From Catalinimonas alkaloidigena (GTDB taxonomy: Bacteria > Bacteroidota > Bacteroidia > Cytophagales > Flexibacteraceae): a DNA stretch of 64,000 nt. Shown here in pieces: positions 12,036 to 42,976 of this stretch (its first letter is position 1; each line of letters opens with the position of its first letter). The translations under genes and the position numbers were made by a program. The stretch is taken from NCBI RefSeq assembly GCF_900100765.1, contig NZ_FNFO01000002.1, positions 558,001 through 622,000 of the forward strand, in the 5' to 3' direction. The notes under the pieces are model-generated. The model made no database searches. It saw only the letters and a list, made by a program, of their open reading frames with translations, and was not told where the DNA came from.

Positions 12036-12056
12036 GGCGACACGCCTCTTTTATAG

Positions 12057-12090
12057 AAAAAGCCCGGAAGCAATTCCGGGCTTTTTTGTT
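12057..12090 (+). terminator. Intrinsic terminator of dnaK
   Basis: AAAAAGCCCGGAA, a GCAA loop and TTCCGGGCTTTTTT form a long GC-rich hairpin followed by a T tract, 22 bases after the dnaK stop. Confidence 0.9.
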
Positions 12091-12110
12091 TGTAATCCAC
12101 GTGCAAAGGA

Positions 12111-12137
12111 AAAGCCCGATTGCTCAGGTCGGGCTTT
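12111..12137. terminator. Second terminator-like hairpin after dnaK
   Basis: AAAGCCCGA (12111-12119) pairs perfectly with TCGGGCTTT (12129-12137) around a 9-base loop. Short A and T flanks suggest a weaker or bidirectional terminator backing up the first. Confidence 0.6.
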
Positions 12138-12565
12138 GGTACTGTATGAAGCAATTTGCTAGCCTTGGGGATTAAGCCGCGGCTTATGGATTGTGAAACG
12201 ATTTGCATGACAAATATAGAGTGAGAACGATGAATAATAAAACTTTATCAGAAAATAGTGTAACTATATTGATGCTTTGTGAGTTAATCATTTGATAATC
12301 AAATGCTTGAAAGATGATTTTTATTTGAAAAATTTATATAAAATAGTAGATATTTGGATGGTCGCGCGTTTCCGTGTTACGTATAAAATGTTATTCGCCC
12401 GAAAGCTCGACTGCCACATTCGCATTTTATCTGTCGATTTTCCACGAATATTTAAAAGTGTCGTAAGGAGGTAATTATATTTTTTACCATATTACCTCTG
12501 TGTTGTCAGATGGTAGAGGGGACCCCTTGGCTCGTCTGCCGTGAAATCACATAAAATTAATTACT
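12138..12565. other. AT-rich intergenic region with two hairpins before the NMT1-like gene
   Basis: No convincing gene is seen in this stretch; a 60-codon open frame at 12292-12474 has no family resemblance and an unusual composition. The region holds an inverted repeat GAGGTAAT (12468-12475) / ATTACCTC (12491-12498), and a GC-rich hairpin around 12507-12538 (CAGA and AGAGGGG pairing with CCCCTT and TCTG) 28 bases before the downstream ATG. It does not match the TPP riboswitch core. Confidence 0.5.
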
Positions 12566-13531
12566 ATGTATCTTAGTGTAGCACTCGATTGGACCCCTAA
12601 CATCAGCCACGCTGGCTTCTTCATCGCGCAGGCCAAGGGATATTATACGGAAGAGAACTTGTCGCCAAGTTTTCGGTCACCTGCAGACGACGACTACCGG
12701 ATTACGCCAGCCAAACGGGCAGCCCGCCGTGGAGTGAGTTTAGGGATTGCTCCTTCGGAGAGTGTGATCAGCTACAATACATTTTCGGAACCCGTGCCCC
12801 TGCGGGCGGTCGCCGCACTGATGCAGACCGATACCAGCGCCATTGTTACTCTGAAGTCGAGTGGCATTGCCCGTCCCAGTCAGCTGGACGGAAAGGTCTA
12901 CGCTTCGTACGGAGCGCGTTTTGAAGAAGGCTTGGTAAAAGCCGTGGTGCGAAACGATGGCGGGGAGGGCAACCTCACAATTGTTCGCCCGGCGAAGTTG
13001 AGCATCTGGGAAGGAGTCATGAAAGGGAAAGCCGATGCCACCTGGATTTTCACACCCTGGGGAGGCGTTACTTCAGCCGATGCAGAGAAAGGGTTGAATT
13101 TCTTCCGGTTTCAGGACTATGGTGTGCCTTACGGCTATGCACCCGTACTGTTGACTCACGCGAGCACCATCGAACGCGAACGGGAAGCCTTGCAGACCTT
13201 CTTGGCCGCAACGGCACGTGGGTACCAGGATCTGACCAAAGATGATCCGACGCAGACAGCACGTCTCCTGGCCGAAACCGTGCGTTCGGGCGAATTCAAC
13301 AACATTGAATTAACGGCAAAGCGCGTACAGGCGCACCAACAAGCTTTCCTGGACGATGCCGGGCAATGGGGCGTGATGAAAGAAGAACGCTGGCAGCAGT
13401 TTGCCGACTGGCTTTTTGCCGAAGGCTTGGTGACCGACCTGCACGGCGTACGGATGGAGTCGTCCAAGCTCAACGTGCAGAGCATCTACACCAACGAACT
13501 TCTGGAAGCCATGCCCGCCGACCGTTCCTAA
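12566..13531 (+). CDS. NMT1/THI5-like domain protein without signal peptide
   Basis: The 321-residue protein starts MYLSVALDWTPNISHAGFFIA, the classic opening of NMT1/THI5-like and ThiY-type proteins that bind or make the pyrimidine moiety of thiamine. The fold is that of a type II periplasmic binding protein. The protein begins directly with the first strand and lacks any signal peptide, so it is probably cytosolic or exported by another route. No transporter permease or ATPase is adjacent. The eukaryotic THI5 suicide enzyme uses a histidine and a cysteine-rich CCCFC motif; I see no such cysteine cluster here. Role in pyrimidine or thiamine metabolism is inferred from the family only. A strong terminator follows at 13553. 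Confidence 0.8.
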   Translation: MYLSVALDWTPNISHAGFFIAQAKGYYTEENLSPSFRSPADDDYRITPAKRAARRGVSLGIAPSESVISYNTFSEPVPLRAVAALMQTDTSAIVTLKSSGIARPSQLDGKVYASYGARFEEGLVKAVVRNDGGEGNLTIVRPAKLSIWEGVMKGKADATWIFTPWGGVTSADAEKGLNFFRFQDYGVPYGYAPVLLTHASTIEREREALQTFLAATARGYQDLTKDDPTQTARLLAETVRSGEFNNIELTAKRVQAHQQAFLDDAGQWGVMKEERWQQFADWLFAEGLVTDLHGVRMESSKLNVQSIYTNELLEAMPADRS

Positions 13532-13552
13532 GCAAGCGATACTTTAGACTAT

Positions 13553-13596
13553 AAGCCCCCGCCTTCTTCTACTAGAGAGGGCGGGGGTTTGTTTTT
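13553..13596 (+). terminator. Intrinsic terminator after the NMT1-like gene
   Basis: AAGCCCCCGCC pairs with GGCGGGGGTTT across a loop of about 15 bases and is followed by GTTTTT, 20 bases past the stop codon. Confidence 0.9.
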
Positions 13597-13801
13597 AGTG
13601 ACCTGCCTGAAGACCCCAGCGCTGACATTAGCCTGTAGCGACTACCACGGCTTTACGAAAAGCGATACGTACTGACGCCAAAATGCCAAATAAAATGTGC
13701 ACAAGCGTGCAAAGGTTTGAATTAGGGTTTTGAGCGATTATGCAAAAAATTGTTTTATGTGTTTTGATATTCGTGATAAATTATTGCTATAATTGTGTAA
13801 G

Positions 13802-13946
13802 TGGTAGAATAATTCACTTGTTTTAGCCCTGGCAATTCGCCAGAGAAAAGTTGGCCTTGGGGGGCCAAGCCAGAACAAGGAGGTATTTTATTACTCAGGT
13901 TGTTTGGTGTAGAGGACTCCGCGGGGGCGGAGTCCTTTCTTTTTTT
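13802..13946 (+). ncRNA. Candidate structured RNA or leader with three-way junction and terminator
   Basis: No open frame explains this stretch. An eight-pair helix CTTGTTTT (13817-13824) / AGAACAAG (13872-13879) encloses two perfect hairpins: CTGGC-GCCAG (13829-13843) and TTGGCC-GGCCAA (13851-13868). About 30 bases later a strong intrinsic terminator, AGGACTCCGC (13913-13922) with GCGGAGTCCT plus a T run, ends the unit. A promoter-like TTTTG (13762-13766) and TATAATTG (13788-13795) lie upstream at about the right spacing, which would start the RNA near 13802. The terminator sits 58 bases before the DUF2721 start, so the element is either an independent small RNA or a terminating leader of that gene. 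I could not match it to a known riboswitch. Confidence 0.42.
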
Positions 13947-14003
13947 AAGGAGGTTACCAACCCGCTTTTCGATTACGGTTCTACTAACTTTAAAAGCAAA
14001 AAC

Positions 14004-14405
14004 ATGGCGTTGACCCTAACGACCCCAGCCTTGCTTTTTCCGGCCCTTTCGCTCTTGTTGTTAGCGTATACCAACCGATTCCTGACCATCGCAACGCTCA
14101 TCCGAGGATTGCACTCGCAATACCGCGACGATCCCAGTCAGCGCATTTTATTGCAGATTAAAAACCTACGTTTGCGGGTGCGTCTGATCCGCGACATGCA
14201 GTTTCTGGGCATCATGAGTTTGCTACTCTGCGTGCTGTGCATGTTCATGCTGTTTAAAGAATGGCTCCTGGCGGCCAGGTATACCTTCGCTGTCAGTCTG
14301 ATGCTCATGATTGGCTCATTGGCCGTCTCGGCCTGGGAAATCTACATTTCGGTGCAGGCCATTTCCATTGAACTCAGTAGTCTGGAAGATCAGTCACCGA
14401 AATAG
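14004..14405 (+). CDS. DUF2721 family inner-membrane protein
   Basis: I start at the ATG at 14004, giving 133 residues (MALTLTTPALLFPALSLLLLAYTNRFLTIA), because the upstream part of the open frame runs through the terminator at 13913-13946. Three hydrophobic segments (PALLFPALSLLLLAYT, GIMSLLLCVLCMFMLF and FAVSLMLMIGSLAVSAWEI) are separated by a basic cytoplasmic loop with LRVRLIRDMQ, which is the DUF2721 layout. The function of the family is unknown. The terminator directly upstream raises the possibility of control by premature termination. Confidence 0.85.
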   Translation: MALTLTTPALLFPALSLLLLAYTNRFLTIATLIRGLHSQYRDDPSQRILLQIKNLRLRVRLIRDMQFLGIMSLLLCVLCMFMLFKEWLLAARYTFAVSLMLMIGSLAVSAWEIYISVQAISIELSSLEDQSPK

Positions 14406-14506
14406 TACGGTCATCTGTTCGTTAGGAAAGTGCGTATAGGCAAAGGAGGTACACCCCGGTAGTCTTTTAATTCTGTGTATCTTACCGTAACCTAGGGCAT
14501 ACTGCC

Positions 14507-42902: not shown

Positions 42903-42976
42903 GGGCCCTTAGCTCAGTTGGTTAGAGCACCTGACTCATAATCAGGTGGTCGCTGGTTCGAGACCAGCAGGGCCCA
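42903..42976 (+). tRNA. tRNA with CAU anticodon, best read as tRNA-Ile2
   Basis: The 74-base cloverleaf has acceptor arms GGGCCCT and AGGGCCC with discriminator A, a D arm AGCTCAGTTGGTTAGAGC, an anticodon arm CCTGA-CTCATAA-TCAGG with anticodon CAT, and a T arm CTGGTTCGAGACCAG. The body (CCCTTAGCTC and TGGTCGCTGGTTC) resembles the lysidine-modified tRNA-Ile2 of Escherichia coli more than elongator Met, but Met cannot be excluded. No CCA is encoded. An integrase gene starts 118 bases downstream, so the 3' end is the likely attachment site. Confidence 0.9.

Follow-up and report, generated by a model that had tools for sequence, protein, structure and literature searches.

In leaders of the attenuation or riboswitch type, a folded junction followed by a terminator is a usual layout, and the purine and TPP riboswitch classes are transcription-attenuating leaders with a three-way junction. 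6S RNA is laid out as a rod with a central bubble. For independently encoded small RNAs (sRNAs) of Bacteroidota, the closest described set comes from Bacteroides thetaiotaomicron, in which 49 high-confidence intergenic sRNAs with a start site and a terminator were reported, 27 of them strain-specific (PMC7366714). Small RNAs of such a layout are ordinary in Bacteroidota, and the lineage-specific kind is reported to be common in Bacteroides. Among the literature matches listed, no sRNA work on Cytophagales was found.

The candidate RNA described here was found in a window, i.e., the whole stretch of DNA that was analysed, of 64,000 nt (positions 558001-622000 of its contig) from the 7.1 Mb genome of Catalinimonas alkaloidigena. 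It lies in the 472 nt that separate an NMT1/THI5-like gene from a DUF2721 gene. A promoter-like site, a sequence with a predicted fold, and a terminator are directly visible there as sequence features, and with moderate confidence we lean towards reading them as a stand-alone, lineage-specific intergenic sRNA gene that would be independently transcribed and probably trans-acting. The features of the locus are as follows (window coordinates, strand, description):

12566-13531, upstream of the RNA: NMT1/THI5-like gene (frame end at 13531)
13551-13592, + strand: terminator-like hairpin behind the NMT1/THI5-like gene (terminator scan, 18 pairs)
13762-13795, + strand: promoter-like site of the Bacteroidota -33/-7 type, TTTTG (13762-13766), 21 nt, TATAATTG (13788-13795) (genome-trained matrix)
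13800-13946, + strand: predicted transcript of about 147 nt, with ends placed from the fold and the promoter spacing
13800-13827, + strand: 5' strand of the closing stem P1 (fold, pair probabilities)
13829-13843, + strand: hairpin P2, CUGGC-AAUUC-GCCAG (predicted fold)
13844-13850, + strand: unpaired junction strand AGAAAAG between P2 and P3 (predicted fold)
13851-13868, + strand: hairpin P3, UUGGCC-UUGGGG-GGCCAA (predicted fold)
13869-13895, + strand: 3' strand of the closing stem P1 (predicted fold), carrying AAGGAGGT at 13877-13884
13896-13910, + strand: unpaired tail between stem and terminator (predicted fold), a possible base-pairing seed
13911-13946, + strand: intrinsic terminator, stem 13911-13922/13927-13938 and T-run (terminator scan, -21.9 kcal/mol)
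14004-14405, + strand: DUF2721 gene, 133 aa (Pfam PF11026, E 1.6e-36), the next gene downstream

An eight-pair helix (13817-13824/13872-13879; seven Watson-Crick pairs and one G-U pair) that encloses two hairpins (13829-13843, 5 pairs; 13851-13868, 6 Watson-Crick pairs and one U-G pair) had been recorded in an initial annotation of this DNA, and all three elements were found where it had put them. The eight pairs are present, but the helix had been drawn too short, as the predicted closing stem comprises 25 pairs. Outwards, it continues to 13800/13895, interrupted by a bulged base at 13816 and a single mismatch at 13812/13883; inwards, it continues past the mismatch 13825/13871 with two more pairs to 13827/13869. 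For the folded part (13800-13895), the prediction is a three-way junction closed by this stem and bearing the two hairpins. In the predicted ensemble, 41 of 49 pairs have a probability of at least 0.94. Compared to dinucleotide shuffles, the fold reached z values of -4.43 (13796-13950), -4.92 (13798-13898), and -4.49 (13802-13946), with 0 of 200 shuffles as stable for each of these three choices of ends. Counting against it, z was just -3.1 for 13799-13910, which has 12 nt of extra tail. After composition correction, 43 of 45,790 segments (101 nt, both strands, 460 kb of the same genome) were equally extreme, as were 17 of the 2,808 intergenic-like segments of the same 460 kb; the 460-kb count takes in overlapping segments and plain terminators. 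The fold is well supported as a prediction but is not extraordinary for the C. alkaloidigena genome.

Upstream of the fold, the promoter-like boxes at 13762-13795 had likewise been noticed before and are present; in a sigma-70 reading (TTGATA, 18 nt, TATAAT) they agree in 11 of 12 positions, and the sigma-70 scan returned 7 such sites in 6 kb vs 4.8 in shuffles. The promoter consensus of Bacteroidota is TTTG / TAnnTTTG (PMC6847099, PMC7366714). A two-box matrix seeded with this consensus was trained on 492 upstream regions of the genome, 281 of which yielded a site, and it scored TTTTG-N21-TATAATTG at 8.7, the top of 13593-14003. The same score was reached by 22% of the 492 real upstream regions and by 5.3% of shuffled ones. 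Because the training set probably includes the region of the candidate RNA, and because 13593-14003 exceeds the mean length of the training regions, the matrix argues only moderately for a promoter. The -7 box also has one departure from TAnnTTTG, an A at -8, which counts against it; T is nearly invariant at this position in F. johnsoniae (PMC6847099). Boxes of the TAnnTTTG type precede genes of the C. alkaloidigena genome, tRNA genes included: three were seen upstream of tRNA genes, and five scored 8.8-10.9 compared to the 8.7 found here. In F. johnsoniae, the spacing is such that the G of the -7 box lies at -5 (PMC6847099), and by placing the G at -5 we infer a +1 at 13800. Four nt separate the promoter-like site from the base of P1, and as P1 reaches 13800/13895, the predicted transcript would start at the stem base.

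At the 3' end, the strong intrinsic terminator that had been annotated at 13913-13946 was borne out with 10 of 10 pairs (13913-13922/13927-13936) followed by TTTCTTTTTTT, and the inner nine of the twelve pairs in its full stem have a probability of at least 0.999 in the full transcript. Its placement "just upstream" of the DUF2721 start was loose as to distance, with 57 nt between the terminator end at 13946 and the ATG at 14004. On the other side of the RNA, the terminator-like hairpin at 13551-13592 closes off the NMT1/THI5-like gene and was counted in favour of an sRNA unit of its own. Further upstream, two terminator-like hairpins were seen behind dnaK, one (12056-12087) with T-runs for both strands and the other (12105-12137) scored on the minus strand only. 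Across 1.26 Mb of the genome, 25 of 178 intergenic terminators were orphans, i.e., had no gene just upstream, and 3 of these 25 follow a sequence with z < -4, two of the three beside tRNA genes. The terminator at 13911-13946 is missing from the orphan list because an open frame back to 13851 masked it; by the orphan-terminator measure, the candidate RNA has a z of -3.1.

The RNA had initially been left without a known class, and the searches agree: no Rfam family matches at or above its gathering cut-off at the RNA. At the gathering threshold, the sole Rfam match in the whole window was a tRNA at 42903, and with E-values of up to 10 over 13540-14020 every match stayed below its cut-off. In a DNA search, one of 59 genomes matched, which was the own genome. 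For structure searches, the single sequence was entered twice to make a covariance model (R1), whose E-values are rough and whose reach, with one sequence behind it, is limited to fairly close relatives. With R1, again only the own genome matched among the 59 at an E-value of 1 or better. In 390 genomes of the order (E 0.5), two matched, the own genome and one other (L072), and no credible homologue was found in the 389 others. The L072 match (E 0.156) was rejected as a long G+C-rich hairpin with no evident sequence resemblance; this hairpin (L072:1501-1613) is flanked by TCATGCTGAGC / GCTCAGCATGA and resembles a repeat or small mobile element. Looser filters with E-values of up to 10 gave matches in 2 of 37 genomes, the own and G019 (E 4.5 and 7.1). 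A second R1 match in the own genome (L071, E 0.71) is G+C-rich sequence with a different fold and was discarded. Searches over more than 40 genomes were run with stricter filters, and at most 10 candidates per genome were scored in the 390-genome search. Plasmids and phages gave no match at blastn sensitivity, viral contigs had no match to an exact 18-base pattern, and BLAST found no second copy in the own genome. The genomes covered did not include another member of the genus, and the case for absence is therefore stronger outside the genus than inside it. Within the reach of these searches, both the RNA and its gene order appear to be private to the lineage.

That the RNA is a diverged housekeeping RNA such as 6S RNA is very improbable. 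The 6S models RF00013 and RF01685 (6S-Flavo) find no 6S RNA in the own genome, so that a diverged one could hide somewhere, and this absence says little because in none of 19 genomes of the group does the 6S-Flavo model exceed its cut-off. However, neither model matches the RNA, the two-hairpin junction with its terminator is unlike the 6S rod, and a housekeeping RNA should have family homologues, of which none was found.

The lack of homologues would also suit an inverted-repeat remnant, e.g., of a decayed mobile element, that is not a functional RNA and merely sits beside an ordinary terminator. The opposite strand has a z of -6.45, lower than that of the + strand, as a long inverted repeat would give; R1 also matches the opposite strand (25.8 bits), and this strand has promoter-like sites too, though weaker ones (9 of 12), as well as a terminator-like hairpin (13868-13851). 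A repeat of this type is nevertheless unlikely in our view, given that BLAST found no second copy in the genome and R1 no match there beyond chance (E 0.71), that the arms have no target-site duplication (by eye), and that on the + strand the element is flanked by the strongest promoter-like site (11 of 12) on one side and by the T-run terminator on the other.

No ATG is found on either strand in 13800-13946, in agreement with the initial annotation, which had seen no coding frame that explains the RNA; frames of at least 20 aa that open inside this interval do so with TTG, and one frame opened by an ATG at 13740 stops at 13826. The DUF2721 frame itself stays open back to the TTG at 13851. When the extended DUF2721 protein was used as query, similarity began at residue 48-59 in 35 of 46 loci (the ATG being residue 52). 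In the remaining 11 it extended 7-15 residues further upstream, in two of them 31-32, and the 10 displayed of these 11 loci have 1-9 identities over 7-32 upstream residues, several with stops. Since the conserved sequence begins there in most loci, the ATG at 14004 was taken as the DUF2721 start.

A second reading makes the RNA the 5' leader of the DUF2721 (perhaps DUF697) mRNA, i.e., an attenuator or riboswitch in which sensing of a ligand or protein by the junction would determine whether the terminator forms. The arrangement of the locus is in its favour: the RNA lies on the same strand with its terminator 57 nt ahead of the DUF2721 start codon, the junction followed by a terminator fits such leaders, and the best promoter-like site of the gap precedes the RNA. 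The site directly before DUF2721 (13959-13996) scored 6.1, close to the median of the real regions (5.9), and because it is only middling, a DUF2721 leader retains some plausibility. Folding of growing transcripts, however, gave as best rival helix for the 5' arm of the terminator one of -3.7 kcal/mol vs -21.9 kcal/mol for the terminator, i.e., no strong anti-terminator, and no Rfam family matched above its cut-off. Conservation also speaks against a leader. DUF2721 is encoded in 32 of 59 genomes including the own (31 of 58 relatives), and R1 was run on both strands of 46 whole DUF2721 loci, with flanks of at most 1.5 kb in 29 loci and at most 3 kb in the other 17 (L009 and L048 have just about 130 nt upstream of DUF2721); the element was found in 0 of the 46. 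None of the six neighbour proteins tested (NMT1, DUF697, DUF6134, DnaK, DnaJ, and an MGS-domain protein) was found near DUF2721 in any of the 46 loci (tblastn, 1e-4), and the same tblastn recovered DUF2721 itself in 45. The tie of the RNA to DUF2721 is not conserved. Because of the missing strong anti-terminator and the missing conservation, a riboswitch with attenuation is not the leading reading, and we regard a leader of either type as possible but doubtful. From the alternative given in the initial annotation, "riboswitches or small RNAs", the small RNA is retained on its sequence features (promoter-like site, fold, terminator, and no ATG), and the riboswitch is set back by the want of a strong anti-terminator, by its absence beside other DUF2721 genes, and by the lack of a credible homologue. 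DUF2721 itself has been linked to formate tolerance in Shewanella through a point mutation in one such gene, whose function is called unknown in that report (PMC12093963).

The window also contains four copies of AAGGAGGT, a complement of the anti-Shine-Dalgarno sequence, on the + strand (12465-12472, 13877-13884, 13947-13954, and 14443-14450). Three consecutive intergenic regions contain them: the first copy precedes the NMT1-like gene, the second is part of P1, the third directly follows the terminator, and the fourth precedes DUF697. Counted from the first base to the start codon, they are 101, 127, 57, and 64 nt away, respectively, which is too far for normal use. Four copies were reached in 9 of 100 shuffles, but scattered over the window. 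In 1.26 Mb of the genome, AAGGAGGT has 21 copies. Of these, 6 were scored intergenic, including two at this locus; the open frame caused the pair located between 13851 and 14004 to be scored coding. The word AAGGAGGTA has 28 copies in the 7.1 Mb genome vs 54 for the reversed word, and 3 of the 28 are found here; 5 of the 28 were scored intergenic, including two at this locus, and the copy in the RNA was again scored coding through the open frame. For a longer motif common to the three leaders beyond AAGGAGGT, only weak local alignments were obtained; the two best were equalled in 5 and 6 of 200 shuffles, and neither spans AAGGAGGT in both sequences. In the region upstream of the NMT1/THI5-like gene (12440-12566), a predicted hairpin GGAGGTAAT/ATTACCTCT buries most of AAGGAGGT, and a second predicted hairpin precedes the start codon; no Rfam match over the cut-off was found there. 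A leader peptide behind the AAGGAGGT at 13877 was considered and rejected: there is no ATG, the GTG at 13907 immediately meets a stop, and the closest TTG that opens a longer frame (13900) sits 15 nt past the motif.

Ribosomes of Bacteroidota keep the anti-Shine-Dalgarno tail sequestered, and rpsU is characterised by strong complements (PMC9976891); about 20% of Cytophagales members are reported to meet the rpsU criteria of that study (PMC9976891). As the ribosomes of the phylum tuck this tail into a pocket formed with bS21, 30S subunits lacking bS21 could bind such elements, and the RNA might then belong to a set of elements so bound. With its complement locked in P1, it would be a gated sensor or sponge for such ribosomes. 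We consider this a very long shot, since rpsU, the known case, depends on an extended complement with a start codon shortly after it. The cluster was spotted only in hindsight and could be of chance origin. If it were functional, regulation by bS21-free ribosomes would be extended beyond rpsU.

Returning to an independent sRNA gene as the reading we favour, RNA polymerase would use a promoter belonging to the RNA itself, start near 13800, transcribe the stem-closed three-way junction, and stop at the terminator near 13946. The RNA would then act in trans, with the tail (13896-13910) and the junction strand (13844-13850) base-pairing with mRNAs, and the long closing stem P1 might protect its 5' end. 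In a duplex scan against 972 start regions in 1.26 Mb, no pairing target was better than those of shuffles, which were as good or better in 23 of 40 cases for the tail, 24 of 40 for a longer tail, 24 of 40 for the junction strand, and 14 of 40 for the P3 loop. If transcribed, the RNA would be one more candidate for a lineage-specific sRNA in Cytophagales, chiefly of value for annotation.

Compared to the described systems, the locus resembles the purine and TPP riboswitch leaders in having a junction and then an intrinsic terminator upstream of a gene, and differs from them in that it has no Rfam match over the cut-off, no strong anti-terminator, and no conserved gene association. With 6S RNA it shares the nature of a stem-closed small RNA but not the layout. 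A start site and a Rho-independent terminator were the selection criteria for the B. thetaiotaomicron sRNA set (PMC7366714); the locus has such a terminator, and its start at 13800 is a prediction. Within this set, GibS has a similar length (145 nt) and uses a single-stranded seed in its 5' portion (PMC7366714), whereas the predicted 5' end of the RNA presented here lies inside the closing stem.
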